DNA of 64,000 nucleotides from Apibacter adventoris (GTDB taxonomy: Bacteria; Bacteroidota; Bacteroidia; Flavobacteriales; Weeksellaceae), in contig NZ_PSZM01000003.1 of assembly GCF_002964975.1 (NCBI RefSeq), positions 1 through 64,000 on the forward strand, in the 5' to 3' direction. Below the pieces are notes generated by a model that made no database searches, had not been told where the DNA came from, and saw only the letters and a list, made by a program, of their open reading frames with translations. The translations under genes and the position numbers were made by a program. Below are positions 5,668 through 25,554 of this stretch, piece after piece (the stretch's first letter is position 1; every line of letters begins with the position of its first letter).

Positions 5668-5684
5668 ATTAGTTAAATAAAATA

Positions 5685-5706: not shown

Positions 5707-5740
5707 TTTTTTATATTTCAATTAATGATTATCTTATAAT

Positions 5741-6004: not shown

Positions 6005-6015
6005 AATATATGTCC

Positions 6016-7236: not shown

Positions 7237-7329
7237 AACAAATGGGATATTTACAACATTCTTTTTCTCATTAAATCCTTAATTCCTGAATCTGAATTGG
7301 AACTGTTGGATCTCTTAAATAAAAAGTAA
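7231..7329 (+). pseudogene. Gene X 3' remnant, shortened copy at the cassette 4/5 boundary
   Basis: The plus-strand frame reads EHNKWDIYNILFLIKSLIP then ESELELLDLLNKK and TAA. A deletion has removed the GSNLCKSSL part, so it joins straight to antisense RHS core. The long tail ELELLDLLNK is shared with the copy ending at 12752. Confidence 0.5.
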
Positions 7330-7337
7330 TAAAAAAC

Positions 7338-7352
7338 CCGCTCGATGAGCGG
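7338..7352. terminator. Bidirectional hairpin downstream of immunity gene 4
   Basis: CCGCTC-GAT-GAGCGG is flanked by six A on the left and a run of seven T on the right, so it works on either strand. Confidence 0.7.
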
Positions 7353-7358
7353 ATTTTT

Positions 7359-7868: not shown

Positions 7869-7875
7869 TCAATTA

Positions 7876-9021
7876 TTACAATTCTGTTTTTTCTATTTTT
7901 TTTGGCTTACTTACTTCTTTTGATACAGATCCTTTCTGAGATTTAATAGTCAAAGCTCCTTCTTTCTTTAGAATATTATTTACATCGACAATTATACCAT
8001 CTGCTGAAAAAGTATGTTTATCTTCATCTAATTCTTTATAATATGTATTAGGCACTAATATATTATTTCCAATGCTATTTTGTTCTCTAAAACTTAGTTT
8101 TCTACCTATCCTCTTTTCAATTGCTGCTTTTAGTGCCTCTTGAGGAACATCAATACAAGAAGATCCTAAAATACCATAATATTCTTTTCCAGCCTGTCTC
8201 TTAGCAGCAGATGCTGCTGCTTGATCTTCACTTTTACTAAAGCTTCCTAAGTAAACCATCTTATCATAATTATGTGATTCATTAGGGTTAGAATCCTGTA
8301 TAATAGATATTACTTTCTTATGAGTTAAGCCTGTTCCTCTAAAATCATTTCGCCCTTTAATTGTACCTAAATCAGCATTTTGACTCTTTCCATAAACAGT
8401 TGCTCCTGGACCTGTTCCATTCATAGAATAGTACCTCCATCCATCTTTATCATTTCCTATTAAAACAGCAGCATGTCCAAAAGCCCCACCTTGAACAGCA
8501 TTGCTATCTATAAGAATAATAATATCTTTCCCATCAGGATCAATAATATTTATTGGATTATTAGCTGAATATGCATAAGGCGAAATACTTGGATATTTTT
8601 CCATTTTCGTATCCACACTCAACCACACAGACTCCCTCGGGTTATAATACCTAGCCCCGTAATAGTATAACCCCGTTTCTTCATCCAGTTCCTTGCCATT
8701 AAACAGGTACGGAGTATTCCAACTCTGATTCCTTTCCTCAATAAACACCTCCCCAAACGGTACATATTCTACATGCTGTACTATTTGCTCGTCTAAGTTA
8801 GTAATATAACTGCTACTTCCCAAATGATCCGCATGATCATAATACTGCTTCTTTTCATATTCTTCATTCTCTTTGCCGATTCCTCCTCCATAGGCTTGGT
8901 GTTTTTTATCCTTTCCTTCACAGCAGAAGCCTGCTCCGTTTACATAATCATTATGGTCTTTTCCATGGTAAGGTACTTCAAAATACGCATAGTGGTCTTT
9001 ATTTAGGTAGTAAATCCTTTC
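7876..9021 (-). CDS. RHS orphan cassette 4: intact core fragment with papain-like toxin tip, no ATG start
   Basis: This is the only cassette whose whole frame is open, from 9021 to 7876 (about 380 codons), but it has no ATG. The first usable start is an ATT near 9015 or the internal TTG at 8823. The core runs from AYFEVPYHGKDHNDYVNG through GSSSYITNLDEQIVQH to YYYGARYYNPRESVWLS. The tip follows NNPINIIDPDGKD and holds GGAFGHAAVLIGNDKDGW and LGSSCIDVPQEALKAA. A conserved His in GHAA and a Cys in SSC are typical of the circularly permuted papain-like (NlpC/P60, LRAT-like) fold known from polymorphic toxins. It is probably silent unless recombined into an expressed RHS gene. Confidence 0.75.
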   Translation of the reverse strand, partial: ERIYYLNKDHYAYFEVPYHGKDHNDYVNGAGFCCEGKDKKHQAYGGGIGKENEEYEKKQYYDHADHLGSSSYITNLDEQIVQHVEYVPFGEVFIEERNQSWNTPYLFNGKELDEETGLYYYGARYYNPRESVWLSVDTKMEKYPSISPYAYSANNPINIIDPDGKDIIILIDSNAVQGGAFGHAAVLIGNDKDGWRYYSMNGTGPGATVYGKSQNADLGTIKGRNDFRGTGLTHKKVISIIQDSNPNESHNYDKMVYLGSFSKSEDQAAASAAKRQAGKEYYGILGSSCIDVPQEALKAAIEKRIGRKLSFREQNSIGNNILVPNTYYKELDEDKHTFSADGIIVDVNNILKKEGALTIKSQKGSVSKEVSKPKKIEKTEL

Positions 9022-9115
9022 TTATCCTTTCTTTAAAACATAAAGAACTGAACTCTCCGAGCACAACCTATGGGATATTACAACACACTATTAAACACCT
9101 GTTTGTACTTACTAT
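9006..9115 (+). pseudogene. Gene X 3' remnant, degenerate copy at the cassette 3/4 boundary
   Basis: The plus strand begins GSKSFLILSLKHKEL in the usual frame and then loses it. TATGGGATATTACAACAC still aligns with the WDIYN region of the other copies. The hairpin that should follow is also decayed (about 9141-9170). Confidence 0.4.
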
Positions 9116-9204
9116 TAAAGATAAAATTGAATAAAATATAAAAAGTCACCTCATTTTGACGCAGTCTTTTGTTTTTTTATGTTATTAATTACTAAGAATC
9201 CATC

Positions 9205-9666
9205 TTATCTTACATCAACTTTATCTTTTTTAACTTTCATTAAAATTGCATTTTCATTCATTTCTTCAGTAAAATAAACCTCTTTATTTAATAAAAAAGA
9301 TATATCTTGTAAATATTTTACTAACTCTTCATGCTCTAATATAGATTTTATTTGTATTGGACTAATATCTTGATCAAGACTATCTGAAGAATTAAAATAA
9401 CAATTTACAATTACTTTTCCCAAGTTTATTAATGCATAATAATGTACACTCTCTCCATCATTACCCCATATACTTTTTAACAAATTATAATCTATATAAT
9501 CTAGGCATACTTCATTATAATAATTCTTAAACTTGACTTTATGCATAATATTAACATGATTTATCCATTTATACCACTCTTCATTATTCATATTAAATAC
9601 TAAAATATCACGTAAAGAACCATCCAAATAATATAATTTATTTTTTATAATACCCCATTCTAACAT
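9205..9666 (-). CDS. Hypothetical protein, probable immunity protein of RHS cassette 3
   Basis: This is an intact 153-residue soluble protein (MLEWGIIKNKLYYLDGSLRD at the start; later CLDYIDYNLLKSIWGNDG and YALINLGKVIVNCYF). It has no signal peptide. ATG at 9666 lies 5 bp after the reconstructed end of the cassette 3 toxin (9672), the same tight spacing as its neighbours. I do not recognise the family. It stayed open although the toxin is frameshifted. Confidence 0.7.
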   Translation of the reverse strand: MLEWGIIKNKLYYLDGSLRDILVFNMNNEEWYKWINHVNIMHKVKFKNYYNEVCLDYIDYNLLKSIWGNDGESVHYYALINLGKVIVNCYFNSSDSLDQDISPIQIKSILEHEELVKYLQDISFLLNKEVYFTEEMNENAILMKVKKDKVDVR

Positions 9667-9671
9667 AAAAA

Positions 9672-10835
9672 TTATTTTTGTTCTTTTAAATATCTAAATC
9701 CATTAAAATTACCATTTCTTGAAACATTTACTCCACGACCAGTATTTTTATCAAATTATTCTTAGTTCCATTATTTAATTCTTCAACAATTTTGTTTTTA
9801 GAATCTAATACCTCATTTAAAACATTCATCCCAACTTTGTCCGCAGTTTTTTCCAAAAATTTTATATTACTAAAAGAACTACCTTCTCTTCCCGCATGTT
9901 TCTGTAAAGCTTGACCAACAACAGATAAACCATTTTTACTTGGAGCTTTTGCTGAAGCAATAAACTTACACATATTTTTTATTAGCGATCCTTTAAAAAT
10001 TGCTCCTGATATTCTCTTAGTAACAATTACCGATGCTCCCACAACAATAATCGTACCTGTAATTTCCCCTTGAATATATGAGTCTGAAGTAATTTTATCT
10101 ATAGCAGCACCTGGATCCGATATAGCCTTACCCATTTTATCTGTTGTTTCCAATAATTGTTCAGTTCGCTTAGTATAAACTTCTACAGCTTTCTCATTTC
10201 CTTGTAAGCCTACAGATGCTGGCCAATCTTTTATACGTTCCCATGTATTAGTAGCATAACCAACTATAGCATCTTTCATTCCCTTTAAAAAATTACTTTG
10301 CTTCCCATTCGGATCTATTAATACGACAGGACTTTGATAACAATATCCATATGTATTAAGGTTTCTTGAGTTAAATACTCCTCCGTTATGTTGACCATCG
10401 ATGTAGTGCTCCGTTTCCATAATAGGGTTATAACCGCTTAACGGATCAGTACTCAACCACACAGATTCCCTCGGGTTGTAATACCTAGCCCCGTAATAGT
10501 ATAACCCCGTTTCTTCATCCAGTTCCTTTCCATTAAACAGGTAAGGGGTTTTCCAACTCTGGTTCCTTTCCTCAATTAACACCTCCCCAAACGGTACATA
10601 TTCTACATGCTGTACTATTTTGCGTCTAAGTTAGTAATATTACTGCTACTTCCCAAATGATCTGCATGATAATAATACTGCATCTTTTCATATTCTTCAT
10701 TCCCTTTGCCGATTCCGCCTCCATAGACTTGGAGTTTTTTATCCTTCCTTTCACAGCAGAAGCATGCTCCGTTTACATAATCATTTTGGACTTTTCCATG
10801 TTAAGACTCTTCAAAATATGCATAGTTGTCTTTAT
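9672..10835 (-). pseudogene. RHS orphan cassette 3: core fragment plus tip with a C-terminal frameshift
   Basis: The core is out of frame before 10582 because a G is missing in the QIVQHV codons near 10620. From MLIEERNQSWKTPYLFNGKE it is open to 9728. The tip has a helical pre-toxin region and then KNGLSVVGQALQKHAGREG and FLEKTADKVGMNVLNEVL. The last residues are shifted after NNGTKNN: the other frame gives DKNTGRGVNVSRNGNFNGF then RYLKEQK, ending at 9672. The GQALQKHAGR to GRGV-GNFNGF pattern is one I know from C-terminal tips of RHS and contact-dependent toxins (probably nuclease-like), without a secure family name. One indel separates it from an intact tip. Confidence 0.75.
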
Positions 10836-10838
10836 TTA

Positions 10839-10967
10839 GGTAGTAAATCCTTTCTTATCTTTGCTTAGGAACATCCCGAATTTCGAGAACATTCCACATG
10901 GGATATTTACAATACCGTGGAACTTCCTCAGATTGCTCTGCATGGACGAAGAGAAAGAGTGAAATAA
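10839..10967 (+). pseudogene. Gene X 3' remnant, copy at the cassette 2/3 boundary
   Basis: It reads GSKSFLIFA, in-frame TAG, EHPEFREHSTWDIYNTVEL, then a locally shifted part and RERVK, TAA. The N-terminal and final segments match the copy at 3753-3890. The internal stop and compensating indels show it is not translated. Confidence 0.5.
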
Positions 10968-10970
10968 AAA

Positions 10971-10992
10971 AGCCCGATATGTAAATCGGGCT
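10971..10992. terminator. Bidirectional hairpin downstream of immunity gene 2
   Basis: AGCCCGAT-ATGTAA-ATCGGGCT is preceded by six A and followed by seven T; a strong stem usable on both strands. Confidence 0.8.
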
Positions 10993-11045
10993 TTTTTTGA
11001 GTTTAATTTGTCTAAACTTTTTGGGGCAGTCCAAAAGCAGGAAAG

Positions 11046-11429
11046 TTAATAATACTTATCTAATTCTTCTTCTAAGTCCAACTTAAATTCATTCAAACTA
11101 ACAACAAATCCTGTTATGTCATTTATTGGAAAAACATTTATTAAATATTCATTATTATCAATTATCTCATACCATTCATCAATAAAGTCATCCAAAGGAA
11201 TTTCTCTTATAGTGAAATATTCCCAACCGTTAATCTTACAACTCTCTGCAAATTCTGTAGCGGACCATACTGGCAACATAATATATCCATCCAATTCAGA
11301 TATAGCTATATCCCCTTCTTTGCTAAATAAAAGATAAATGAATTCATTATCTGCAACTTTTTTAATAAAGTATCTATATCTCTCTAAAGGTGTTAATTTA
11401 ATAACATTGTCAAATTCATACTTATTCAT
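11046..11429 (-). CDS. DUF2750 family protein, probable immunity protein of RHS cassette 2
   Basis: This is an intact 127-residue protein that matches the DUF2750 pattern along its whole length: LERYRYFIKKVADNEFIYLL near the start, then YIMLPVWSATEFAESC, GWEYFTIREIPLDDFIDEW, and INVFPINDITGFVVS at the end. DUF2750 proteins are often found next to polymorphic toxins and are predicted immunity proteins. The start lies 6 bp after the stop at 11436 of the adjacent type-8-like toxin tip. It has no signal peptide. Family assignment is fairly secure; the role is inferred from context. Confidence 0.8.
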   Translation of the reverse strand: MNKYEFDNVIKLTPLERYRYFIKKVADNEFIYLLFSKEGDIAISELDGYIMLPVWSATEFAESCKINGWEYFTIREIPLDDFIDEWYEIIDNNEYLINVFPINDITGFVVSLNEFKLDLEEELDKYY

Positions 11430-11435
11430 TATACA

Positions 11436-12606
11436 TTATTTTATAGGTCTTTCTTTATTTTTTCTTCCCCCATTATCATATTTATGTTGTGCTCTATGAT
11501 CTTTCTTATTTTGAAGTTTAGAATGTTCATAAGAATATCCCTTTGCTGCCTCTCTACCTCTCTCATGGGCTAATTCTTTACCAGGAGGATTCCTTATACT
11601 TTTTCTTTTACTTTGTTTTATTAATTTTAATTTCCTGTTTAATCTAAGCCCTATTTGTTTTCCCCAATTTAGGATCATTAGCCAATTGTCTTAATCTTTT
11701 TTATTTCCCTAACCTAGCTGTAGATTTTCCCTTTGAAACTGCAATTACCAATAGATCAGTTGCTAACTGAACATCTCCTGCATCTGATTTAGATATATTT
11801 TCTCCTAATATTAGCTCTCCTATCCTTTGAATTTCTTGCATCGTTATTTGCTCCGATCCTGAAAAAGGATCTCCCCCAATAGTTTTAACATCAAGTCTAG
11901 GCCCATCATAGTTATTCCAATAATGAAATTATCCATATATCATCAATATATCCCAAGCTTTCTACATTTACAACTGAACCTGAACTTTCTCTTGAAGAAT
12001 TAGAATTAATCTCAGGAAATGGATTGAATAAATTTCTAAAAAAATTACCTATAGGTTCTGATATATTTCTTCCCAACCAACTTCTTTTTTTAGGTCCAGG
12101 ATCTCTTCATCTTCTGCACTCATCCTTGTCGGATCGGTATATCTAATTGGATTTTTATATGTTTACTTATATGGAGTTCCTGTTTTCTCAAACATCGGAT
12201 CCACGCTCAACCACACAGACTCCATCGGGTTGTAATACCTAGCTCCGTAGTAGTATAACCCCGTTTCCTAATCCAGTTCCTTGCAATTAAACAGGTATGG
12301 GGTATTCCAACTCTGGTTCCTTTCTTCAATAAACACCTCCCTAAATGGTACATATGCTATATGCTGTACTATTTGTGCGTCTAAGTTAGTAATATTACTG
12401 CTACTTCCCAAATGATCCGCATGATTATAATACTGCATCTTTTCATATTCTTCATTCCCTTTGCCGATTCCGCCTCCATAGGCTTGGAGTTTTTTATCAT
12501 TGCCTGCACAGCAGAAGCCTGCTCCGTTTACATAATCATTATTGTCTTTTCCATGGTAAGGCACTTCAAAATAAGCACAATGGTCTTTACTTAGGGAGTA
12601 ATCTTT
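11436..12606 (-). pseudogene. RHS orphan cassette 2: core fragment plus decayed polymorphic toxin type 8-like tip
   Basis: The core (AYFEVPYHGKDNNDYVNG, YLFNCKELD) is open from 12618 to a nonsense TAG at 12268, then resumes ETGLYYYGARYYNPMESV and meets a second stop near 12163. The tip is readable only by changing frame several times: WLGRNISEPIGNF, LDVKTIGGDPFSGSEQITM, RLRQLANDPKLGK. The end, open from 11678, has IRNPPGKELAHERGREAAKG and YSYEHSKLQNKKDHRAQHKY. ELAHxRGREAAKGYSY and the final QHKYDNGGRKN match what I know as polymorphic toxin type 8. At least four lesions are present, the most of any cassette. Confidence 0.75.
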
Positions 12607-12752
12607 GTACATCTTCACTTATTCTCTCTTTGGAACATCCCGAACTCCAAGAACACATCCAATGGGACATTTACAATATCCTGCAACTCATTCGCTCCCT
12701 TATCCCTAAAGACGAGTTAGAATTGTTGGATTTGCTTAACAAAGAACTTTGA
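12594..12752 (+). pseudogene. Gene X 3' remnant, longest copy, at the cassette 1/2 boundary
   Basis: The plus-strand frame encodes GSNLCTSSLILSLEHPELQ, then EHIQWDIYNILQLIRSLIP and KDELELLDLLNKEL, TGA: 52 codons and a stop, followed 8 bp later by a strong hairpin. It is the best-preserved copy and, like the shortened copy ending at 7329, keeps the long ELELLDLLNK ending. Upstream the frame runs into antisense RHS core, so the true N-terminus is missing. Confidence 0.6.
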
Positions 12753-12760
12753 AAACAAAA

Positions 12761-12782
12761 AGCGACCGATTTATCGGTCGCT
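12761..12782. terminator. Bidirectional hairpin between gene X remnant and immunity gene 1
   Basis: AGCGACCGAT-TT-ATCGGTCGCT is a ten-pair stem with A-rich sequence on the left and TTTCTTTTT on the right. Confidence 0.8.
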
Positions 12783-12838
12783 TTCTTTTTAATATTTACT
12801 GAATTCTTGTAATTCCTTTTTAGGAAATTTATTCTCCT

Positions 12839-13204
12839 TTATATAGCTAAAACTTCTATAAACTCTATGTCTATTAATTCCATTTTATCATCATATAAAA
12901 ATTCACCAACACATTTTTCTAATTTTAAAATTCCTGATTTATATACCTCAAATTCACCAATAATTACTTCAATCGTTATAAGTGGTATTTGATCACTTTC
13001 TTTTGAATAACTTTTCTTAATTCTCAAATTTAATACTTCCAAACTATCATCAAAAGAAATTTCTCTTGTGTAAATTTTTTCTAAACCATCTACATCCACT
13101 TCAATAACTGGATTCTCAGCAGATAAAGATAAATAAGCATTTAAATCTTTTTTTAACTTATCTAAATCTATATTCACTGAAATATTAAATATAATATTAT
13201 TCAT
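12839..13204 (-). CDS. Hypothetical protein, probable immunity protein of RHS tip 1
   Basis: This is an intact 121-residue soluble, acidic protein of beta-alpha character (MNNIIFNISVNIDLDKLKKD at the start; then VIEVDVDGLEKIYTREISFD, LITIEVIIGEFEVYKSG and a final YDDKMELIDIEFIEVLA). It starts only 2 bp after the stop of the toxin tip at 13207, so translation is probably coupled. The family was not recognised. With no signal peptide it should neutralise its toxin in the cytoplasm, which agrees with the RelE-like look of the tip. Confidence 0.7.
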   Translation of the reverse strand: MNNIIFNISVNIDLDKLKKDLNAYLSLSAENPVIEVDVDGLEKIYTREISFDDSLEVLNLRIKKSYSKESDQIPLITIEVIIGEFEVYKSGILKLEKCVGEFLYDDKMELIDIEFIEVLAI

Positions 13205-13206
13205 AT

Positions 13207-14274
13207 TTATTTATTAATTAATTTATCAAAAATTATAACAGGTTTTCCGTTATGTGTTCCCATATTTCCTAATATTCTGTAAGAACCAAACTGCCCTCTA
13301 CCCAATTTAATTTCATATATTCTTCCTTCTATACCCTTACCTGCTAATTGCTTTATCCCTCCTACTCCTTTTGCTCTAACAAAGCCTTTTTCTCCTGCTC
13401 TCAACATTTGATCCAATAATTTAGGTGAAATACCTGCTAATGTTTGATATGTTGATTTTGTTATCCAAAAAGCAGTCTTTGATCCAACTCCTTTTCCTTT
13501 AGATATAATAAGTCCTAAACTTCCTAATGCATATTTTTTAATTTGACTATCTCCTTCGTTTGATTCTTTATCAAGATAAGCGAATGCAGCATCAGCTAAT
13601 CCGGGATCAAAGCCAAATCCTGTATAAATAAGTGCTCCATCTGATGATACATTTCTTTGAGAAATTGAAAAATCTAAATTAGGTTCATCTGAGTTAGTTC
13701 CAAAACGTGCAGAAATATTTAAATCTGTTACTTCGTTATAAGGTCCGTTGCCTGGAGTTACATCTACAGTCGCACTTGCTTCAACGGTAAATTTACCTTT
13801 ACCAACCTTAGTTACTGTTCCTGAACCTCCAAAATTTTGCTTATTATATTGCTCTGCACGTATCCTATTAGAATGCTTAAAAATATTATTCCATATACCT
13901 GCACCTCTTATCCATTTATTTTTAGGAGGCGTTACTGTTATTCCTGGAAGTTCCTTTTCTGGTGGATCGGCCGGAGCCATTCCTGTTGGATCTGTATAAT
14001 TAACAGGGTTTAAATTTGCATAAGCATAAGGGCTAATATTTGGAAACATTTCCGCCAACGGATCCACTGATAACCACACAGATTCCCTCGGATTATAGTA
14101 TCTGGCACCGTAATAGTATAACCCCGTTTCCTCATCCAGTTCCTTGCCTTTAAACAGGTAAGGGGTATTCCAACTCTGGTTCCTTTCCTCAATAAACACC
14201 TCTCCATACGGTACATATGCTACATGCTGTACTATTTGTGCGTCTAAGTTAGTAATATAGCTGCTACTTCCCAA
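13207..14274 (-). CDS. RHS core end with RelE/HigB-like C-terminal toxin tip (cassette 1)
   Basis: This open frame of 355 codons starts at a TTG inside the RHS core (GSSSYITNLDAQIVQHVAYV) and continues through YYYGARYYNPRESVWLS and NLNPVNYTDPTGMA. A linker follows (RGAGIWNNIFKHSNRIRAEQ, GKGKFTVEASATVDVT, FGFDPGLADAAFAYLDKESN), shared with the broken cassette 5. The last ~70 residues, with GRIYEIKLGRGQFGSYRILG and PVIIFDKLINK, look like a RelE/HigB-type BECR RNase (basic, YRIL then a hydrophobic strand and final K). The upstream part of the same gene is broken by a frameshift near 14300 and a stop at 14394, so full-length export seems impossible. Confidence 0.7.
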   Translation of the reverse strand: MGSSSYITNLDAQIVQHVAYVPYGEVFIEERNQSWNTPYLFKGKELDEETGLYYYGARYYNPRESVWLSVDPLAEMFPNISPYAYANLNPVNYTDPTGMAPADPPEKELPGITVTPPKNKWIRGAGIWNNIFKHSNRIRAEQYNKQNFGGSGTVTKVGKGKFTVEASATVDVTPGNGPYNEVTDLNISARFGTNSDEPNLDFSISQRNVSSDGALIYTGFGFDPGLADAAFAYLDKESNEGDSQIKKYALGSLGLIISKGKGVGSKTAFWITKSTYQTLAGISPKLLDQMLRAGEKGFVRAKGVGGIKQLAGKGIEGRIYEIKLGRGQFGSYRILGNMGTHNGKPVIIFDKLINK

Positions 14275-14393
14275 ATGATCTGCATGATCATAATACTGTA
14301 TATTTCATATTTTTCATTCCCTTTGCCGATTCCGCCTCCATAGGTTTGGAGTTTTTTATCTTTGCCTGCACAGCAGAAGCCTGCTCCGTTTAC

Positions 14394-15275
14394 TTAATCA
14401 TTATGGTCTTTTCCATGGTTAGGCACTTCAAAATAGGCATAGTTGTCTTTTATATCCTGCAGGCTGTGTTCGTATTTTTCTTTCCAGTTTATTTTTACTC
14501 CTCGTAGGTCATCGCCGGCATATTCTATTCTGCGAGGATCGGCCCCGAAGCTTTCTATATCGCCGAGTTTACTTACTATTCGTTGGCTTCCTATGTAGTA
14601 ATGTTTGGTGTATTTCCCGTTAGGGCTCACTACTAAATACGGATTGATATAGGCGGTGAATCGTCCGGTTTGGGTGTTCCCTCCGGCAAATAGTGCGTTT
14701 ACATACATCTGCTCACTCTCTCCGCTGGTTTTTATCACTCTTTCTCCTGCTGCATCATACCAATAGTTGCTTACATATCCGTTGTCATCAAGGGCACGTA
14801 GGCGGTTTTCTTTAGCATTCTTATTCCCGTAGTAATAGGTTACATTGTTTTCAGGATGTTCCGGATAGGTAATTTTCTTTAGCCGTGTATATTCGTATTC
14901 ATAGTTTATAGTTTTGCCGGTTGGGGCTAAGTTTGAGGTCTGGCAGCTAATTACATTTCCTAGGTCATCATAATATAAGAATACGGTCCCGGCAGAAGGA
15001 TGGGTAATTTGTATCCTATTTCCCTGCATATCATATCGGGAAGTGGTCTTCTGTCCTTCGGTATCGATTACCTCGGTCAACTGTTGGATGCCGTCGTAGG
15101 TGAAACGGGTGGTTATAGTTCCTGATGGACCGGATAATTGTTCGGTTTTTACTGTTAATCCGGATCCGTTGGTATAGGTGGACTGTTTTCCTCCTAAGGC
15201 ATCGGTGGTAGTGGTTATCCGGGTACGATCCGAAGGGTTCAGGGTATAGGCTGCGGTGCGGTACTCTGGGTTTCA
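14394..15275 (-). pseudogene. RHS repeat core of the parental gene, with frameshift and nonsense mutation
   Basis: This is the middle of the parental RHS gene. From about 15260 the frame reads TAAYTLNPSDRTRITTTTDA, GSGLTVKTEQLSG, then from 15080 TEVIDTEGQKTTSRYDMQGN, YYYGNKNAKENRLRALDDNG, NYWYDAAGERVIKTSGESEQ and HYYIGSQRIVSKLG: typical YD/RHS repeats. An earlier piece, MKETTLPDETQ, is one frame off, so a base is lost near 15265. The frame ends at a TAA at 14394 in the codon that is TAT in most other copies (HNDYVNG). These lesions disconnect the tip from the export domain. GC content is visibly higher than in the tips and the rest of the window. Confidence 0.75.
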
Positions 15276-15303
15276 TCCGGAAGGGTGGTTTCCTTCATTC
15301 GGT

Positions 15304-16347
15304 CTAAAAGTTAGGATTTTCTTCATATGAGGTGGTCCCGCCTTTTTGGAATAATCCGCTTTTATCATCACGTATCATGCCTGTGATCCTTTTGCTATAT
15401 TTTCTATCTTGGTCAAGATCCCATATTAGGTAACTTTCACTATCTAAATAGGAGCGTTCCATGGTAAATCCATATTTTACGGCTAGGTAACTTTCTGTTT
15501 TTATCCTTTCTAAAGGGGTTAATATACGTCCGTATATAAATAATTCCGGTATATAGGCTTCTGCATAGTCTCCGTCGCCCCCGGGTAGGTCAAATGTGGA
15601 AGTGTTATTTACATTGTCGGGATAAGATCTTTGCCCTAAGGATATTACTGAATGGTTTCTTACTCCCCACAAAGAGGTATGGGGTTTACCGGTCCGGTAA
15701 TAGACAAAGGAACGAAGGGCTCTTTCTCTAAATTGGTTCATATCGGATTCGGGACTCTTCCCGCTATGGTACATAAAGTCATAGCCTTCTTCGGACCCAT
15801 AATCTAATATGCCTCTTTGGCTTTCTTTGCTGTTGATTACCTTATCTGTACTTAATATAAAGCTATTCCCCGGGACTCCGTTGAATGTAAACATATTCTT
15901 GGGTTGGTCCATTGGGTCGGCCCTTAATGAAAACGCTCCTATTATCGTCGTTGTGGTTAGATTTGATCCTTTAATGTATATTTCTTTGGATATTTCATTG
16001 TCGGAATCACAAAAATTGGATATGTTTTCTAATTGATTCTTTATCGCCTCTTTATCATTGGCATTAAAACTTAATGCCGGATTAAAGTTATAATTGCGCA
16101 GGTAGTTATCGGCTTTACCTAAATATTCAACTCCATAAGCAGCTCCTCGCGGATCGTAATATCTTACTTGTAGTAAGTCTCCGGAATAATCTTCCCATTC
16201 ATATGATCCATACCAATCTTCGGTACGGGGATGGGCTACCGGCTGCATCCATAAAACCGCTCCGGGCACTCCGCCTGGACCTATTATTTTTTCTTGGGAA
16301 TATAATAAACAGCTACATAAAGACATCAAGGTGTTGATCTTTTTCAT
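15304..16347 (-). pseudogene. N-terminal export and lectin-like part of the parental RHS protein
   Basis: I chose ATG 16347 because it begins a signal peptide (MKKINTLMSLCSCLLYSQ); the longer frame from 16398 adds residues upstream of it without purpose. The mature region has PGGVPGAVLWMQPV, then NPALSFNANDKEAI and a late segment AYIPELFIYGRILTPLERIK followed by ESYLAVKYGFTM. This is the pattern of the concanavalin/LamG-like N-terminal domain found on surface proteins of Flavobacteriia. The frame stops at 15304 after TTSYEENPNF, and the next homology is to the far end of an RHS core, so roughly the whole middle of a normal RHS protein is missing. A promoter-like element lies at 16375-16382. 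Confidence 0.7.
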
Positions 16348-16374
16348 AGTTATATTAGTTTTTTTAATGAATAG

Positions 16375-16382
16375 CAAAGCTA
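16375..16382 (-). promoter_or_regulatory. Bacteroidota -7 promoter element of the RHS gene
   Basis: On the minus strand this reads TAGCTTTG, matching TAnnTTTG, 27 bp before the ATG at 16347. It is the only clear promoter noticed for the whole RHS and immunity array. Confidence 0.5.
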
Positions 16383-16398
16383 AAAATTTATATTTCAC

Positions 16399-16935
16399 AC
16401 CCTAAAATTATTAATGTATATTATTTTTTTCTTGTTTACTGTTTTAAATATAACCCCTCATCCTTATTTTTATTGCAAGATGTGTATTGATTTTTTATTG
16501 TGTTTTTATATTTTTTTCTTTATTTTTTTTATTCATTATTATAAATATTTATGTTTCTATGTTAATTATAAATAAATCAGAATTGGATTGATTAATATTT
16601 TTGTTTTTTAGGTTTTTACTAAAAGTTACTAAAAAATATTTAATCATTATATTATCCGAAAGTAAAATGTTTATTTATTAAAATAAATAAGTAAATATAT
16701 TAGAATTATTATTGTATTCCAAAAATAGGCCCAAATCTATATGCTAAAAAAATAGATTTTAAATATTATTTGGATAATGTTATTTATATAATTACTTTTT
16801 GTAGTTTTTTTAATTATTTATATACAAACAATTATATATTTAATAAATGATAAAAGTTCATTAAATCTATTTATATAATAATTTTAAGCTTTACATTACA
16901 TATAATAAGTAATAGATTTAAAAAAAATGTAGTTT
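16399..16935. other. AT-rich intergenic region at the island edge
   Basis: This stretch of about 540 bp separates the toxin island from the GNAT gene. It is extremely AT-rich, with no open frame, RNA gene, attachment repeat or transposase trace that I could identify. Confidence 0.6.
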
Positions 16936-18060
16936 TTATATTTCTTTAAAATAAGTTCTTCTTCTTTTATGATTTATGGGATTATAATCTTTCCACAAAA
17001 GCTGAATGCTTTTATTGTTTTCTAATTCGGGATTAGTCTCTAAATACCTAATACCCTTAGAATTAAAAAGCTCAAAAAATTCTTTAAGTACTATAGCAGT
17101 GATGCCTTTTCTTTGATAATCCGGATGTATTCCTATAAGATAAAAATTTGCCCATTCATTATGTCTAGACGCTTTTAATAAATGATACCAGCCCCAAGGA
17201 AACAATTTACCTTTTGCTTTTTGTAATGCTTTAGAATAAGAGGGCATGGTAATAGCAAAACCTACTAATTTATTATTCTCATCAGCTATACAAATTACAT
17301 AATCTTTATTAATAAAGGGAATGTATTTTTCTTTATAATAATTGATCTGTTTTTCTGAAAATGGAACATAAGTAGGCAAAACCTTATAAGTTTCGTCTAA
17401 TAGTTTAAACATTTCATCTGCATATTTTATCAATTCCTTCTTGGTATTGAAACGTAAAGCTTTTAATTTATATTTTTGTTGTAAAAGTTCAGAAAATCGA
17501 ATTACTTTTTCTGGTAAAACATCTACAACCTTAATATAAAACTCTACCCATTCATTAGCTTTAGTAAATCCTAAAGATTCAAAATGTGTTGAGTAATAAG
17601 GGTAATTATATAAACCAATCATTGTGGCTAATTTATCATATCCCTTAATCAGTAATCCTGCTTTATCTAAATTAGTAAACCCTACAGGTCCTTCAATTCT
17701 TGTAAATCCGTTTTCTCTGGCAAATTCATAAGCTTTATCTAATAAAGCTTTGGTTACATTAAGATCATCTATCACATCAAACCACCCAAAACGTATTTTT
17801 TTTATACCTAATAGATTTTGTTCATTTTTATTAAGAATAACAGCAATTCTTCCTACTATTTTTTCATCTTTATAAGCTAAATATTTTTTACATACAGAAA
17901 ATTCAAAAACAGGATTTTTCCTCTCATCAAAAATTTCCATTTCTTCGGAAATTAAAGACGGTACATAATATGGATTATTTTTATAAAGGAAATTAGGATA
18001 TTCAACAAATTTTTTTAAATCAGATTGTGTATAAACTTCTTTAATTATTATTTGATCCAT
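16936..18060 (-). CDS. GNAT-family N-acetyltransferase-like protein
   Basis: This 374-residue protein belongs to a conserved Bacteroidota family with a GNAT fold. The N-terminal part (YPNFLYKNNPYYVPSLISEE, YLAYKDEKIVGRIAVILN) holds the beta strands that usually precede acetyl-CoA binding. The C-terminal part has FYLIGIHPDYQRKGITAIVL, which is the acetyl-CoA loop (QRKGI in place of Q/RxxGxG/A), then LETNPELENNKSIQLLWKDY. The substrate is unknown; family members are annotated only generally. It stands alone, with its own promoter element (TAAATTTG on the minus strand, 18078-18085), convergent with the toxin island rather than part of it. Confidence 0.8.
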   Translation of the reverse strand: MDQIIIKEVYTQSDLKKFVEYPNFLYKNNPYYVPSLISEEMEIFDERKNPVFEFSVCKKYLAYKDEKIVGRIAVILNKNEQNLLGIKKIRFGWFDVIDDLNVTKALLDKAYEFARENGFTRIEGPVGFTNLDKAGLLIKGYDKLATMIGLYNYPYYSTHFESLGFTKANEWVEFYIKVVDVLPEKVIRFSELLQQKYKLKALRFNTKKELIKYADEMFKLLDETYKVLPTYVPFSEKQINYYKEKYIPFINKDYVICIADENNKLVGFAITMPSYSKALQKAKGKLFPWGWYHLLKASRHNEWANFYLIGIHPDYQRKGITAIVLKEFFELFNSKGIRYLETNPELENNKSIQLLWKDYNPINHKRRRTYFKEI

Positions 18061-18077
18061 ACTGTTATTAAATAAGA

Positions 18078-18085
18078 CAAATTTA
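18078..18085 (-). promoter_or_regulatory. -7 promoter element of the GNAT gene
   Basis: TAAATTTG on the minus strand, 17 bp before the start codon at 18060. Confidence 0.55.
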
Positions 18086-18313
18086 AATATTATAAAAAAG
18101 GAATTACATCAAAAAAAATAGTAATAATCATTAATTATAAAAAAAATGAAAACTTAAAAAAATTACTTCTATTATTTTTTGATGCAAAAATAATATAATA
18201 ATTTAAAATGTGAGATTTCTAAGATAAATCAGGAAATTTTTTAAATTTAAGATATTTTGCTAATCGATAAAAAAAGGCATAATTTTAGTATTTATCAATA
18301 AAAATTTAATTTA

Positions 18314-19018
18314 ATGATGCACGATCCAATTTATATTGCAATTACAGCGGTTATTTTTATAGTGAGTATGATAGTTCAAGGGCAGTTAAAGTCTAAATTT
18401 GAATTATACTCAAAAACGAGTCTTTCTAATGGAATGAGTGGAAAAGAGATAGCGGAGAAAATGTTGAGAGATAATGGGATTATAGATGTTCAAGTAATTT
18501 CTACACCGGGTATGTTGACAGATCATTATAATCCGGAAAATAAAACCGTAAACCTTTCGGAAGCAGTATACAGTCAGAGATCTACTGCTGCTGCTGCAGT
18601 TGCAGCTCATGAATGCGGACACGCTGTGCAACATGCTGTTGGATATTCTATGCTTCAATTAAGATCAAAATTAGTACCTGTGGTAAGTATTAGTTCTAAT
18701 TTATTACAATGGGTTTTATTGGCAGGTATTGCCATAATGGCATTTTCAGGAAATACAATTGTTTTAGGTATAGGAATTGGTTTATTTGCTCTTACTACTC
18801 TTTTTGCGTTTGTTACGTTACCCGTAGAATATGATGCCAGTAATCGGGCTTTGGCTTGGTTAGAAAATAATCAGATTGTAAGACCAAATGAATATAATGA
18901 ATGTAAAGATGCTCTTACTTGGGCTGCTAGAACTTATTTAGTGGCTGCTTTAGGTTCTTTGGCTCAATTATTATATTTTTTAATGATTTTATTAGGTAAC
19001 CGAAGAGGAAATAATTAA
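18314..19018 (+). CDS. Neutral zinc metallopeptidase, YugP family
   Basis: This 234-residue membrane protein has a first membrane segment at residues 6-23 (IYIAITAVIFIVSMIVQG), the zinc-binding HECGH motif at 99-103 in AAAAVAAHECGHAVQH, then two or three further membrane segments (WVLLAGIAIMAFSG, GIGIGLFALTTLFAFVTL, ALGSLAQLLYFLMILLG). Length and layout match YugP-type zinc peptidases, whose physiological substrates are not established. The stop at 19018 lies 8 bp before aroB, so the two are likely co-transcribed. All key residues are present. Confidence 0.88.
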   Translation: MMHDPIYIAITAVIFIVSMIVQGQLKSKFELYSKTSLSNGMSGKEIAEKMLRDNGIIDVQVISTPGMLTDHYNPENKTVNLSEAVYSQRSTAAAAVAAHECGHAVQHAVGYSMLQLRSKLVPVVSISSNLLQWVLLAGIAIMAFSGNTIVLGIGIGLFALTTLFAFVTLPVEYDASNRALAWLENNQIVRPNEYNECKDALTWAARTYLVAALGSLAQLLYFLMILLGNRRGNN

Positions 19019-19026
19019 TATTTTAT

Positions 19027-20079
19027 ATGAATTTTATCAATCCCATTTATTATAAAAAAGAAGCAATAAAAAAAATAAATAATTTTATTTTAGAATATAA
19101 TCCTTCACAATTAATTTTTTTAGTAGATTCTAATACTCATCAATTTTGTTTTCCGAAAGTAGTATCAGATATAAAATCTGAATGTAGAATAGAGGTTTTG
19201 GAAATAGAGCCCGGTGAAGAAAATAAAAATCTTTATACTTGTATAAATTTGTGGGAGGCTCTAACTGAATTAAAAATAGACAGGAAAAGCCTTTTAATTA
19301 ATATTGGTGGAGGAGTTTTGACAGATATGGGAGCTTTTGTTGCAAATTGCTATAAACGAGGGATTAAATTTATAAATATACCTACAACTCTTTTAGCTAT
19401 GGTAGATGCTTCTATTGGCGGTAAAACCGGTGTAGATTTAGGTAGTCACAAAAACCAGATAGGAAATTTTGTTTTACCTGAAATGGTAATGATAGATTCC
19501 GATTTTATAAGAACTCTTCCACAAGCACAGATATTAAGTGGATTTGCTGAAATTATAAAACATGGATTAATAGCTGATAGAGAATATTGGAATAAAATCA
19601 TTCAAATACAAGATTTAAATGCTGAAAATTTAGAAAGCTTAATCTCTGCTAGTATTGATATTAAGAAAAAAGTAGTAGCTGAAGATTTTACAGAAACAGG
19701 ATTACGAAAAATATTAAATTTCGGGCATACAATAGGACATGCTGTAGAAAGTTTTTTTCTGGAAAATAAAGAACCTATTTTACATGGACAAGGTGTAGCA
19801 ATGGGAATGATAGTAGAAAGTTATATTTCTGTAGAAAAAGGTTTTTTAGCCTATTCAGACTATCAACTTATTAAACAGTATATTAATTCTCTATATTCAA
19901 AAATTTCTTTCTTGAAAGATAATTTTAAAGAAATTTTCATGTATATGCAAAATGATAAAAAGAATGTAAACAATGAAATTAAGTTTGTTCTCTTAAAAAG
20001 TATAGGTGAAGCGGTATATGATATCTCAGTAAATCATGAATTGATAGAAAAAGCTATTAATGTATATATAGAGATGTAA
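19027..20079 (+). CDS. aroB: 3-dehydroquinate synthase
   Basis: AroB converts DAHP to 3-dehydroquinate, the second step of the shikimate pathway, in the cytoplasm, using NAD and a divalent metal. The 350-residue length is normal. Diagnostic segments are the NAD-binding INIGGGVLTDMGAFVA, the IPTTLLAMVDASIGGKTGVD signature, the metal-site FAEIIKHGLI, and LNFGHTIGHAVES with the metal-binding histidines. It follows the zinc peptidase at 8 bp spacing. No terminator hairpin was obvious after it. Confidence 0.95.
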   Translation: MNFINPIYYKKEAIKKINNFILEYNPSQLIFLVDSNTHQFCFPKVVSDIKSECRIEVLEIEPGEENKNLYTCINLWEALTELKIDRKSLLINIGGGVLTDMGAFVANCYKRGIKFINIPTTLLAMVDASIGGKTGVDLGSHKNQIGNFVLPEMVMIDSDFIRTLPQAQILSGFAEIIKHGLIADREYWNKIIQIQDLNAENLESLISASIDIKKKVVAEDFTETGLRKILNFGHTIGHAVESFFLENKEPILHGQGVAMGMIVESYISVEKGFLAYSDYQLIKQYINSLYSKISFLKDNFKEIFMYMQNDKKNVNNEIKFVLLKSIGEAVYDISVNHELIEKAINVYIEM

Positions 20080-20341
20080 ACATATCAAATTTTTATCAAA
20101 AAATAATTTATTCTTTTTATTTTAATATCAATTGAACTACTTTTTCTTAAGAGTTGAAAAAAATAAGCGGTTTTATTTAAGTTTTGAATTAAATAAATGA
20201 ATAGTTTTTTATTTACAAAATTTCGAATATCTTAATATATCCTTTTTTTATTAGATTTTAAAAATTTTGTAATTAGTTTAAAATTCATTTTCCTAATAGA
20301 ACAAAAGAATCAAAAAAATATATGTGATGTTTATCATTTCA

Positions 20342-20395
20342 GGCTAAATACAGGGATTTTTATTTATATTTGGCCAAAAATTAATATTATGAAAG
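20342..20395 (+). repeat. 54-bp direct repeat R1, promoter and start-codon segment
   Basis: It matches 21816-21869 at 49 of 54 positions by eye, from GCTAAATACAGGGATTTTTA to ATGAAAG. It contains TATATTTG, a good -7 element, and ends in the first codons of a reading frame. Confidence 0.75.
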
Positions 20396-20517
20396 ATTTT
20401 AACAACTTAATTACAAATTTTTTATTGCTCATAATCTATCATGCTAGTGAGGTAAAATCAGCCATAAATAACATCTTTTACAACTTTAAAAATATTACTT
20501 TTTTACAGACTATATAA
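20389..20517 (+). pseudogene. Short 42-codon frame behind repeat R1, probably a remnant
   Basis: ATG at 20389 opens MKDFNNLITNFLLLIIYHAS then EVKSAINNIFYNF and ends with TAA at 20517. It has a hydrophobic N-terminal stretch like a signal segment. The promoter and first three bases after ATG are duplicated upstream of the lipoprotein gene at 21863, whose N-terminus it replaces. It is either a truncated paralogue or a genuine small peptide; nothing else supports function. Confidence 0.3.
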
Positions 20518-20620
20518 GTTTAAATAGTTTTTTTATGTTAAAATAATTAGTATTTCTAATTAAAAAAATAGAGAAGATCTGCAATACTCAATTTATCTAT
20601 AATTAAATAATTTATTTATA

Positions 20621-21307
20621 ATGAAAAACAAAACTACAGCTGCTCTTTTAGCTTTTTTCTTAGGCGGTATAGGTGGCCACAAATTTTATTTAAACAGACC
20701 CGTAGAGGGATTTATATATTTAATATTTAGTTGTACATTGATTCCTGCTATTATAGGTTTTATTGAAGGTATTATTTATTTATGTATGAGCGATTATTCA
20801 TTTAATCTCAAATATAATGAAATACCAATTCAAACTAATAGTAATAATATTTATTTGTCCCTTAATCAAAATTTAGCTCATGGTAATGGCGGGTATCACT
20901 CTCAACAAAATAATACTATTTATGAGAATAAAAATATATTACCTAAGACTCAATCTGAAGCCTTTTATTTTATATTAATTAAAACATCCCAATTAGATGG
21001 AGAGGTAACAAAAAATGAATATCAACGTATGGAAGTTGTTTTAAAATTATTTTTTAATGATAAGGTTTTAAATATGACTACAGACGAAAATAGGATTAAA
21101 CCTATATTACATGAAGATACTTTTGTGGTAATTGACAAATGCCTTGAATTTATTGATGATAATGAAAATTTATTAAAAGTTATTATAGAATTCAGTAATA
21201 AAAACGGAATAATAAATGAAGAAATAATGAACATTATCAGGTATATTTCTAAAAAGTCAGGAATGTCTAAAAATGTTTACACAGAAATAATTAATAATTA
21301 TAAATAA
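20621..21307 (+). CDS. TM2-domain membrane protein with TerB-like C-terminal domain
   Basis: The 228-residue protein begins with a TM2 domain: AALLAFFLGGIGGHKFYLNR (helix, then the GxHKFYLNR turn) and a second helix FSCTLIPAIIGFIEGIIYL. TM2 domains are common in small bacterial membrane proteins of unclear function. After an Asn/Gln-rich linker the C-terminal ~120 residues (ILIKTSQLDGEVTKNEYQRM, FLEFIDDNENLL-type helices) resemble a TerB-like helical domain, in which an acidic DGE motif recurs; that part is a weaker call. It stands alone between two long AT-rich gaps. Confidence 0.7.
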   Translation: MKNKTTAALLAFFLGGIGGHKFYLNRPVEGFIYLIFSCTLIPAIIGFIEGIIYLCMSDYSFNLKYNEIPIQTNSNNIYLSLNQNLAHGNGGYHSQQNNTIYENKNILPKTQSEAFYFILIKTSQLDGEVTKNEYQRMEVVLKLFFNDKVLNMTTDENRIKPILHEDTFVVIDKCLEFIDDNENLLKVIIEFSNKNGIINEEIMNIIRYISKKSGMSKNVYTEIINNYK

Positions 21308-21862
21308 GTAGTTTATACTACAAAAATTACTATCGCAAGTAAAAGACTAATTTTATATTGAATGAAATAAAATATTCAGATTATAATATGTGCAAAGTTA
21401 TTTTCAAATCAAAAAATAGCTTTTGAAAGTAAATTTAGTTAATGTATAAAATATCTTATAATGTAATGATGGTTTAAATTTATTTTTTTTCCTTATTTAT
21501 GATGATGACAGTATTATTATAAATATAAAAAAAGATAATCATTTTAAAAAATATAGATTAAATTCTTAAATTATACAATTGTTAAATCAAAAAAAGATCT
21601 TTTTAAAGTTCACAAATTTTTTTAAATTTACTTTTCTTAAAGCATACAAATTTGTGACCTGAAATTTAACTGATATTTTGCTTGAAAATAAGTTTTTAAC
21701 CATTATAGATCCAGATAAATATGATCAACTTATTTAGAATTAAAAGTTTTGAAAATTAATAGATTCTTAGTTAAAGTTCATTTTAAAAAATAAACACACA
21801 TAATATATCACAACCAGCTAAATACAGGGATTTTTATTCATATTTGGAGTAAAATTAATATT
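21308..21862. other. AT-rich intergenic region
   Basis: This stretch of about 555 bp shows no credible coding frame. Its last 47 bases are part of repeat R2 upstream of the lipoprotein gene. Confidence 0.5.
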
Positions 21863-21869
21863 ATGAAAG
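21816..21869 (+). repeat. 54-bp direct repeat R2, leader and start of the lipoprotein gene
   Basis: Second copy of the repeat at 20342-20395. It covers the leader and ATGAAAG of the gene at 21863. The -7-like octamer here is CATATTTG, one base off the consensus found in R1. Confidence 0.75.
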
Positions 21870-22387
21870 TATTTATAAATTCAATATCGATCTTTTTTAT
21901 AGGATTAATCTTAATTTCATGTAATGATTCATTTCTTAAAAATGCTGATTTATTACTAATTAACTTAAATAAAATGAATTATGCCTCAAGTAATGTTTGT
22001 TCATATTATTCTAATGTATGGAAAAATGCAATATACAATGAAGAAGAATATTTAGATGCTTCCAGTCCTTACTACCTCAAAGACTATAATCAGGCACTTA
22101 TTATAGCAAAAGATACAAAATATATAAAAGATGAAGTAGCTTTTATTGTAAAAAGCAAAAAGAAAGTTGACAGTTTAATGAAATATATTAGTGAACATTC
22201 AATTAAAAATCAAGCTTTGTATGATGATTTGTTTGAGTTATATGTAAAATCTAAAGAACTTACTTCATTGGCTCTAAAACCTTCCGGATCATTGATCTAT
22301 TTTGATGATAAAACAAATAATCTTTCGTATGAAATTGTAAATCTTTCTAATAGAATTAAAATTGAATTAGAAGCGAAGAAAAAATAA
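21863..22387 (+). CDS. Hypothetical lipoprotein
   Basis: This is a 174-residue protein with a lipoprotein signal (SIFFIGLILISCND, lipobox ISC near residue 20). The mature part is helical and lysine-rich: NKMNYASSNVCSYYSNVWKN, IYNEEEYLDASSPYYLKDYN, VKSKKKVDSLMKYISEHS, YVKSKELTSLALKPSGS. No family was recognised. The helical pattern with a conserved-looking tryptophan is like small periplasmic-facing lipoproteins of unknown function. Its leader is duplicated at 20342-20395. Confidence 0.65.
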   Translation: MKVFINSISIFFIGLILISCNDSFLKNADLLLINLNKMNYASSNVCSYYSNVWKNAIYNEEEYLDASSPYYLKDYNQALIIAKDTKYIKDEVAFIVKSKKKVDSLMKYISEHSIKNQALYDDLFELYVKSKELTSLALKPSGSLIYFDDKTNNLSYEIVNLSNRIKIELEAKKK

Positions 22388-22859
22388 TTAAAAAAAATAC
22401 TTTCTTTATAAGAATAGTAATTTCAGAATAAGTACAAAATTTACATTTTATTCTATAAAATATATTCCTACAAATAAAAACGACAACAGTTTTATTAAAA
22501 ACTTATTTCTTATTTAATAAAAAATGTTCAGTGAGGTTTCTTTCAAAAAGAGAAAAGCTTTGTCTTAGGTTTATAACCCCTAAGTGAAAACAGCATCCAT
22601 TTTCAAACCGGAAACTTATTTAGGTAAGAATTTTAATAATAAAACAATCTAATTATTTTAAAGATGAACTAAATAATACAATAATAACTAAAATATAATA
22701 GCAAAATTTTTCACCTTAGATAACAGAATAATATTAGAACAAAAACACAATAAATAACAAATATATTTATATAAGTATTTCTTAATCTTAATATATATTA
22801 TATAATAATATTAAATATTATCCCTATATTAGCTATACAACCAATTAAATATATTACTT
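22388..22859. other. AT-rich intergenic region
   Basis: This stretch of 470 bp precedes the leucine-rich-repeat gene. A slightly less AT-rich patch near 22545-22625 has no recognisable gene or RNA. Confidence 0.45.
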
Positions 22860-24500
22860 ATGAAAAAAATTTTATTATTTATGTTAGTATTGAGTGTATT
22901 CAGCACTCATAGTTTGGCTTTTGGAATTTATTCTGCCGAAAAACAAAATTATCTTAAAAAGAATTTTGTAACTTCTACAACTTCACAATACGACCCAATG
23001 GATGTATTGTGAATATTGAATTTTTTAATGCAGTATTCTGAAGATAATAAAAAATGGAATTACGAAATCGCAGGTTTTACCTGGAATGATATGGTTGAAG
23101 CTATAAATGGAAATCCAGATGTGGTTTTAAATAAGTGTAATAATATATATTATACTTTTACTTGGGAAATATCAGGAAATCTAAAAGTTTTAACTAAATT
23201 AAATTTTATTAGTTATAATATTTTTTCTAAATATTCAGGAACATTTGATGGTAAATATTTTAAAAATTTACAAGTTTTAGATCTTTCTCATCTTAAAATT
23301 ACTTCTCTAAATGTATCTAATAACGCTAAACTAGTAGATCTTCGTTGCGCAGATAATCTAATTACCATTTTAGATGTATCTAAAAATTCTAATTTAGAAA
23401 TTCTTTGGTGTGAAGTTAATAATATAAAAACTTTAGATGTTTCTAAAAATCGTTACCTATCTAGTTTTGACTGTAGTTTTAACGAAATTAAAGTTTTAGA
23501 TATATCTAAAAATAATCAATTAGAAGAAATTTACTGTTCAGGTAATAAAATCAGGAGTTTAAATATTCCGAAAAATCCAAGACTAAAATATCTTGAATGT
23601 TATGGTAATGAACTCAAAGTTTTAGACGTTTCAGAAGCTTTTAACTTAGTAGATTTAAATTGTAGTGATAATAAACTAAATGCTTTAGATGTTTCTAAAA
23701 TTACCGGGATAAAAAGAATAGATTGTGCTGGAAATTTAATTAACACCTTAGATTTATCTAACAATTATAATTTAGAAGCTCTTTTTTGTTATGACAATCA
23801 ACTAACAGCTTTAGACTTATCTAAAAATAAAAATTTTTATAATTTAATTTGTTATAATAATCAATTAAAATTCTCAACTTTAAAAGGAACTTTTACTGGA
23901 TTAAAAATCAAACCTTGGATAGGTTCTCAAGCTATACTAAAAGGAGATACTAAAGGTTTTTTTGAATTAATCGACCTTTCTACTGAATATAACATCAACG
24001 GAACTTTAACAACCTTTAAATGGTATGATAAAGCCACCAATCAAGAAGTGGGGGTATTTGCCTCTAAAGGAACTTTTTATGCAGGTCCGGCCAATGCAGG
24101 AAAAACCCTTATTTGTAAAATGACTAACACTTTATATCCTGATTATATAAATCAGAATTTTATTTTAGAATATGAAGTAAAAATTAGCAATTCTACGACT
24201 CAAGGATTCTCTGCTAAAACTAAGGATTTTAAAATACCTGAAAATTTTATTTTAACAAATTCTAAAGCAGAAGCTTCTAACTTAAAAATATTTCCTAATC
24301 CGATAATTGATATATTGAAAATCAATACTCCTTTACATATTGAAACTGTAAGTGTTTATGATTATTCCGGTAATGAAGTAAAAAAAATAAGTCCAGTTTC
24401 AAGTAAGGAAATTAATCTACAAGGTTTATCCAGCGGCAATTATATACTCACCATACAAACCTCTCAAGGGGTTATTACAAAAAAGATTATTAAGAAATAA
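22860..24500 (+). pseudogene. Leucine-rich-repeat protein with T9SS sorting tail, split by an in-frame TGA
   Basis: ATG at 22860 gives a signal peptide (MKKILLFMLVLSVFSTHSLA), then KQNYLKKNFVTSTTSQYDPM, DVL and a TGA at 23010-23012. The same frame continues without shift to 24500. The body has about ten repeats of ~21 residues (LDVSKNSNLEILWCEVNNIK, LDISKNNQLEEIYCSGNKIR), a Bacteroidota leucine-rich-repeat type with Cys in each repeat. The end (LKIFPNPIIDILKI, NLQGLSSGNYILTIQTSQGV) is a type A T9SS sorting domain. If the TGA is real, the body loses its export signal; one base change would restore a 547-codon gene. The part from 23016 is open by itself. Confidence 0.8.
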
Positions 24501-24521
24501 AAATTCTTAATAAAAGAAAAG

Positions 24522-24541
24522 AACCCGCCAAAGTGCGGGTT
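24522..24541 (+). terminator. Terminator of the leucine-rich-repeat gene
   Basis: AACCCGC-CAAAGT-GCGGGTT is followed by TTGTTTTTT, 21 bp after the stop codon. Confidence 0.8.
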
Positions 24542-24713
24542 TTGTTTTTTAAAGAAAGACAAAACAGACAAATTTCAGCTTTAGTAAATATTTTAAAATT
24601 TATATCTGTATCTTATCAAACGGGTAATCTAAACTGTATAAAAAGATAAAATTGATAGTTTTCACCAAAATTAGATTTATTGTATTTAGGAAGTAATATT
24701 ATTATAAAAATAT

Positions 24714-24760
24714 TAAGCATAAAAAACTCGAATTGTAATAATTCGAGTTTTTTATGCTTA
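24714..24760. terminator. Long bidirectional hairpin after sdhB
   Basis: This is a 21-bp perfect stem (from TAAGCATAAAAAACTCG to its complement) with a GTAAT loop. It has A-runs on the left arm and T-runs on the right arm, so it terminates the sdh operon on the minus strand. Confidence 0.75.
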
Positions 24761-24777
24761 ATTATAAAATTTAATAT

Positions 24778-25554
24778 TTATTCAGCTTTAATGTCATTTA
24801 CTATACTTGCATAAATAAACTCTCTATTCATTCTAGCAATATTTTCTAAGGAAATTCCTTTAGGACACTCTACTTCACAAGCCCCTGTATTAGTACAGTT
24901 TCCAAAACCTTCTTCATCCATTTTTCTTACCATATTTAATACACGGCGAGTAGCTTCTACCCTACCTTGTGGAAGCAAAGCAAACTGAGATACTTTAGCT
25001 GAAACAAATAGCATAGCTGAACCATTTTTACAGGTAGCCACACAAGCTCCACATCCTATACATGCTGCAGCAGCAAATGCTTTATCTGCTTTTTCTTTTT
25101 CAATTGGAATTGCATTCGCATCTATCGTATTACCTGAAGTATTGACAGATACAAACCCTCCCGCATGTTGAATTCTGTCGAAAGCAGTTCTGTCAACAAT
25201 TAAGTCTTTTATTACAGGAAATCCGGCAGATCTCCAAGGTTCAATTACAATAGTATCTCCATCGTTAAACATTCTCATATGTAACTGACAGGTTGTAATT
25301 CCCCTATCCGGTCCATGTGCTCTTCCGTTTATAAATAATGAACACATACCACAGATACCTTCTCTACAATCATGATCAAAAGCTACCGGTTCTTTATCAG
25401 AGTCTACTAATTGTTCATTTAGCATATCCAACATTTCTAAGAAAGAACTTTCTGTAGAAACGCCTTGTAATTTATATTCTTCAAATTTTCCTTTTTCAGT
25501 TTTACCTGCTTGTCTCCAAACTTTTAATGTTAAGTTTAATAATTTTCCTGCCAT
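24778..25554 (-). CDS. sdhB: Succinate dehydrogenase / fumarate reductase iron-sulfur subunit
   Basis: SdhB passes electrons from the flavin of SdhA to quinone through three iron-sulfur clusters on the cytoplasmic face of the inner membrane. The 258-residue protein has the [2Fe-2S] motif CREGICGMC at 63-71, the [4Fe-4S] motif [14 protein letters not shown] and the third-cluster cysteines in [15 protein letters not shown]. It is the last gene of the sdhC-sdhA-sdhB operon, 27 bp after sdhA, and is followed by a long hairpin. Gene order C-A-B and length are those of Bacteroidota. Confidence 0.95.

Follow-up and report, generated by a model that had tools for sequence, protein, structure and literature searches.

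Layout of the locus

The window analysed here, a stretch of 64,000 nucleotides from Apibacter adventoris, contains a leucine-rich-repeat gene that is interrupted close to its start. A signal-peptide-like frame, judged by eye, opens on the forward strand at the ATG at 22860 and meets a TGA as its codon 51 (23010-23012), past which the same frame stays open for 495 codons up to the TAA at 24498-24500. The probability of 495 codons staying open is about 5e-21 at the local base composition under a simple model, so the body is not a product of chance. The features of the locus, each with its basis, are as follows.

22825..22833, forward: TATATTAGC, a promoter-like box that stops 26 bases upstream of the ATG (by-eye family alignment)
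22860..23009, forward: first 50 codons, with a signal-peptide-like stretch and the beginning of the N-terminal domain (translation; alignment of nine relatives, no frameshift; profile match)
23010..23012, forward: in-frame TGA, nonsense codon 51 (sequence; column 51 of the relatives' alignment)
23013..24500, forward: rest of the N-terminal domain, the leucine-rich repeats, a linker domain, the type IX sorting tail and the TAA (495 open codons; Pfam and NCBIfam; paralogue alignment)
23331..23897, forward: nine 21-residue leucine-rich units with one Cys each (body residues 107-295, counted from 23013)
24288..24497, forward: type IX secretion C-terminal sorting domain, type A (TIGR04183 over residues 425-494 and PF18962 over 425-492 of the ORF starting at 23016)
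24520..24543, forward: terminator-like hairpin 3' of the gene (hairpin scan: nine pairs including five G-C, followed by a run of T)

The upstream regions of eight of the ten family members were aligned by eye, and all eight contain a TA-n-ATT-[AG] core. The promoter-like 9-mer at 22825..22833 is no rarer than chance within the window, and TAnnTTTG, the flavobacterial box, has no exact match in the eight family upstream regions.

The body past the stop scores above the cut-off for the sorting domains TIGR04183 (50.7 bits against 23) and PF18962 (43.3 against 27) and for the leucine-rich repeats of PF12799 (47.9 against 27), and its cysteines run from residue 112 to 280 at a spacing of exactly 21, eight times in a row. 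The first-pass annotation had described a signal peptide and body sharing one frame and split by the TGA, a type IX secretion system (T9SS) tail free of damage, and regular repeats. All of this is borne out: translation and the profile match across the stop agree, both sorting models pass their curated cut-offs and the nine 21-residue units hold their cysteines in perfect register. The body length that it gave, 490 residues, has to be corrected to the 495 codons counted. A structure model of the ORF has a mean pLDDT of 70.4; in blocks of ten residues, the values are 69-97 over residues 81-280 and 60-81 over the tail, and the model is poor over residues 291-430.

Like T9SS type A cargo, the window gene keeps a sorting tail above both cut-offs, but unlike such cargo it has a stop that severs the signal peptide from the tail, i.e. 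the Sec signal (judged by eye) and the tail do not belong to the same translated product. Type IX machinery is reported in all strains, wkB301 included, in the accessible text of PMC5913662.

Relatives of the gene

The same genome contains two intact paralogues in tandem (544-aa and 563-aa frames on contig C47), which align with the window gene at 59% identity over residues 2-494 and at 60% and 44% over two overlapping segments; both exceed the PF18962 cut-off. Seven further copies are found in other Apibacter genomes, two of them in tandem in one genome (G007) and five on two contigs of a metagenome assembly (G003), where one copy is cut at the contig end. Every family member begins with a signal-peptide-like stretch and has both the conserved N-terminal domain and the repeats; the linker domain and tail are present in all save the contig-end-cut copy and one truncated copy. 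An N-terminal profile, made from seven relatives and excluding the window gene, aligns to 22860-23258 along its full 125 positions with one TGA inside (E = 6.1e-46). Searched against 296 Weeksellaceae genomes drawn out of a larger group, this profile gave ten full-model matches, all in three Apibacter genomes (three of the nine from this genus); nine of the matches are without a stop and the window copy has its one TGA. The other Weeksellaceae among the 296 genomes show no match to this domain, barring an eleventh match that is partial, weak and in a different genus.

One member of the metagenome assembly (L037 4058-5623, the same as L040 3702-5258) is without the type IX sorting tail, and no tail remnant was seen by eye in the three frames just downstream. 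Copies of the family thus do get broken, and copy loss is part of the family history. A plasmid search gave no match. In a first pattern scan of genome contigs, 55 stretches fitted and none was confirmed; in a second, 150 fitted and two were confirmed, both in an uncultured Apibacter assembly. The literature search found no title or abstract start bearing on the window gene.

The best solved match to the gene is Listeria InlJ (3bz5), found by sequence profile at 9.5e-88 and by fold at an E-value of 2.6e-12, where the TM-scores are only 0.39 and 0.42 and the rmsd is 9.7. The title of this PDB entry names a cysteine ladder, and the window gene shares with InlJ-type cysteine-ladder proteins the 21-residue repeat and the Cys at every 21st residue, with one Cys per repeat in register through nine units. 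The NCBIfam model for InlJ (internalin class 1), NF033187, reaches 97.9 bits against a cut-off of 1700. By analogy, the Apibacter family would consist of surface binding proteins. According to the accessible portion of PMC5915736, Listeria InlJ is sortase-anchored, in contrast to the type IX tail of the Apibacter family, and Porphyromonas gingivalis InlJ mediates C. albicans binding and serves biofilm formation.

Genomic neighbourhood

The neighbouring genes are, judged by their sequences, putative sdhB and aroB, an acetyltransferase-like gene and a zinc-protease-like gene. In all six comparable Apibacter genomes, i.e. those with sdhB and aroB in one stretch, the order is sdhB, acetyltransferase-like, zinc-protease-like, aroB, and none of the six has a family member in that stretch. 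Outside these six, sdhB and aroB lie on separate contigs in one genome (G001), and another (G004) has no match to either. In the window (16936-25554), the block of acetyltransferase-like, zinc-protease-like and aroB genes is inverted relative to sdhB when compared with all six genomes, and between aroB and sdhB there are three genes, the broken one included, that are not seen in those six stretches. The absence of the family from this locus in six of six genomes, together with the inverted block, points to a dispersed extra copy at the edge of a rearrangement.

One neighbour (21863-22387, forward) is a lipoprotein-like ORF of 174 aa, judged by eye, which belongs to no Pfam family and has no match in the eight other Apibacter genomes. 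Elsewhere in the window, at 2600-16400 on the reverse strand, there is a chopped region of many short frames with a recurring motif like YFEVPY.GKDHNDYVNGA, which we take to be of the Rhs/YD type; it resembles an array of Rhs C-terminal cassettes that were displaced. The accessible text of PMC5913662 counts 41 Rhs-domain genes in wkB301 and 9 in wkB180, and fragmentation of Rhs genes may inflate the wkB301 figure of 41.

Nature and age of the stop codon

At the stop column, column 51, all nine relatives have an identical amino acid, and the alignment of the window gene with its relatives contains zero indels across the stop. An invariant column (9/9) without an indel identifies the change as a nonsense substitution, and not as a frameshift or the junction of two fused genes, and a sense codon in every relative at this column is the pattern of a pseudogene made by a nonsense mutation. 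Two separate genes, or a chance overlap, are ruled out by relatives that are single genes spanning the stop, as is a frameshift by the passage from signal peptide to body without an indel.

The part of the gene past the stop looks intact. Its dN/dS (Nei-Gojobori) is 0.33 and 0.42 against the two own-genome paralogues and 0.29 against one G007 copy, and the range over four intact pairs among the other copies is 0.26 to 0.35; the value of 0.42 is the highest of the seven pairs, and all are coarse because the synonymous distances are large. The 495 codons contain no further stop, which 250 of 4455 single-base substitutions would create. Where the other seven complete members are invariant, the window gene keeps 107 of 121 columns, and by the same measure the figures are 107 of 117 and 107 of 116 for the intact own-genome paralogues and between 107 of 107 and 107 of 125 for the remaining five members (this count omits two of the ten members, one cut at a contig end and one without a tail). 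Private changes in a five-sequence comparison of 456 columns number 20 in the window gene and 10 and 17 in the two intact paralogues.

The signs of decay are therefore slight. A gene that decayed long ago is ruled out by the state of the body, with no further stop and with repeats in register; since the body is otherwise intact, the stop is either young or an error. Taken together, the window gene, which in its intact form would encode a secreted Apibacter surface protein with leucine-rich repeats, is very probably a nonsense allele that lost its function recently. Recent decay had been one of the options in the first-pass annotation, and the comparison with relatives favours it.

Alternative explanations

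The lack of further damage would also be seen with a sequencing error or with a working readthrough gene. A consensus error, with the gene intact in the organism and one base of the assembly wrong, would account for a body with no other stop and little excess change, and the assembly (2,754,692 bases) is in draft state, with 47 contigs. The accessible text of PMC5913662 describes the A. adventoris wkB301 genome as 2,756,245 bp in 47 contigs, with 29.1% G+C and 100x coverage. The TGA at 23010-23012 lies outside any homopolymer or direct repeat, which speaks against such an error, and mixing of copies is unlikely because about 40% of residues are not shared between the paralogues. If the strain is wkB301, a giant honey bee isolate, the data are Illumina MiSeq at 100x, substitution errors are rare in unique sequence at such coverage, and an error in base calling is accordingly unlikely.

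There is likewise only a small chance that the stop represents a selected OFF allele at the level of the strain, Apibacter strains silencing single InlJ-like type IX members and so diversifying the surface that binds host or partner. Were this true, strains of the same species would differ in the copies that they display.

A split gene that still works, whether by readthrough of the TGA or by a restart at the TTG at 23016 or the ATG at 23028, is a decidedly improbable reading. Both of these in-frame codons lie shortly 3' of the TGA and the body has decayed little, as such a gene would have it, but a restarted protein would be without the signal peptide that is required before type IX export. 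Furthermore, the TTG and ATG are unlike evolved starts because they align to internal positions of intact relatives, and readthrough is not a family trait because a sense codon is present in nine of nine relatives.

A switch, turning the gene on and off by slipping, by inversion or by recombination with a sister copy, is very improbable. Surface-protein families often vary, the locus stands at the edge of the block that is inverted relative to six other Apibacter genomes, and an exact 10-base inverted repeat with a 12-base spacer (22982-22991 and 23004-23013) places its right arm over the TGA. This repeat is probably due to chance because the DNA is so A+T-rich; the other five of the six inverted pairs at the site are imperfect and short, and inversion of so short a segment is, to our knowledge, no known kind of switch. 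The alteration consists of one in-frame codon in an otherwise invariant column. All three copies of the N-terminal domain in this genome extend over the full profile, so partial cassettes in store are not seen. No direct repeats were found at the stop site, and a repeat-based switch was rejected on this ground. Of the choice between decay, sequencing error and switch that the first-pass annotation had left open, decay is thus favoured, error is unlikely and a switch is unsupported.

The weakest reading, for which the probability is close to negligible, is that TGA is decoded as an amino acid through a changed code, a suppressor tRNA or selenocysteine. The codon is an infrequent stop, as this reading would require: among 42 hand-picked genes of the window, TAA ends 37, TGA three and TAG two. 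These 42 come from a set of 58 frames, of which 14 lying between 1592 and 16398, the interrupted gene and an overlapping antisense frame at 48758 were set aside. Three genes do terminate at TGA, however, one of them at 61142, and the earlier statement that TGA is a normal stop here therefore holds. ARAGORN read no UCA anticodon in any of this genome's 40 tRNA matches, and the single tRNA-Trp has the anticodon CCA. One tRNA could be missing, since the initial scoring covered 150 of the 194 candidates and the accessible text of PMC5913662 lists 41 tRNAs for wkB301. No selB in the genome exceeds its cut-off, the best match (194.5 against 242.25 bits, a 400-aa frame) being probably EF-Tu. With neither a SelB nor a UGA-reading tRNA found in these searches, recoding was rejected, in keeping with the earlier judgement that a different code is not the answer.

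Discussion

Recent loss of function in an extra copy is thus the preferred reading of the locus. Translation would end after 50 residues, and a restart downstream would give a protein without a Sec signal, unable to reach the type IX system. A truncated start, combined with restarts that lack the Sec signal, suggests that the copy is silent, and the window copy is probably silenced. The tandem pair of intact paralogues on contig C47 would probably cover its function, which is supposed to be cell-surface adhesion or protein binding, as for the InlJ proteins with the closest repeats. On this reading, gene loss here is an ordinary event, the recent loss of a redundant copy. Pseudogenes made by nonsense mutations are a known kind in multicopy bacterial surface-protein families; here too, an extra copy is broken by one substitution with intact sisters elsewhere, and the window gene is unusual only in its early stage of decay.

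The stop codon itself carries little weight, other than as a clear instance of very recent gene loss where the copy is redundant. The more useful result arises on the side, namely an Apibacter family of type IX surface proteins that are InlJ-like and bear cysteines. The copy number of this family varies between species, and its members may contribute to attachment in the gut of bees.
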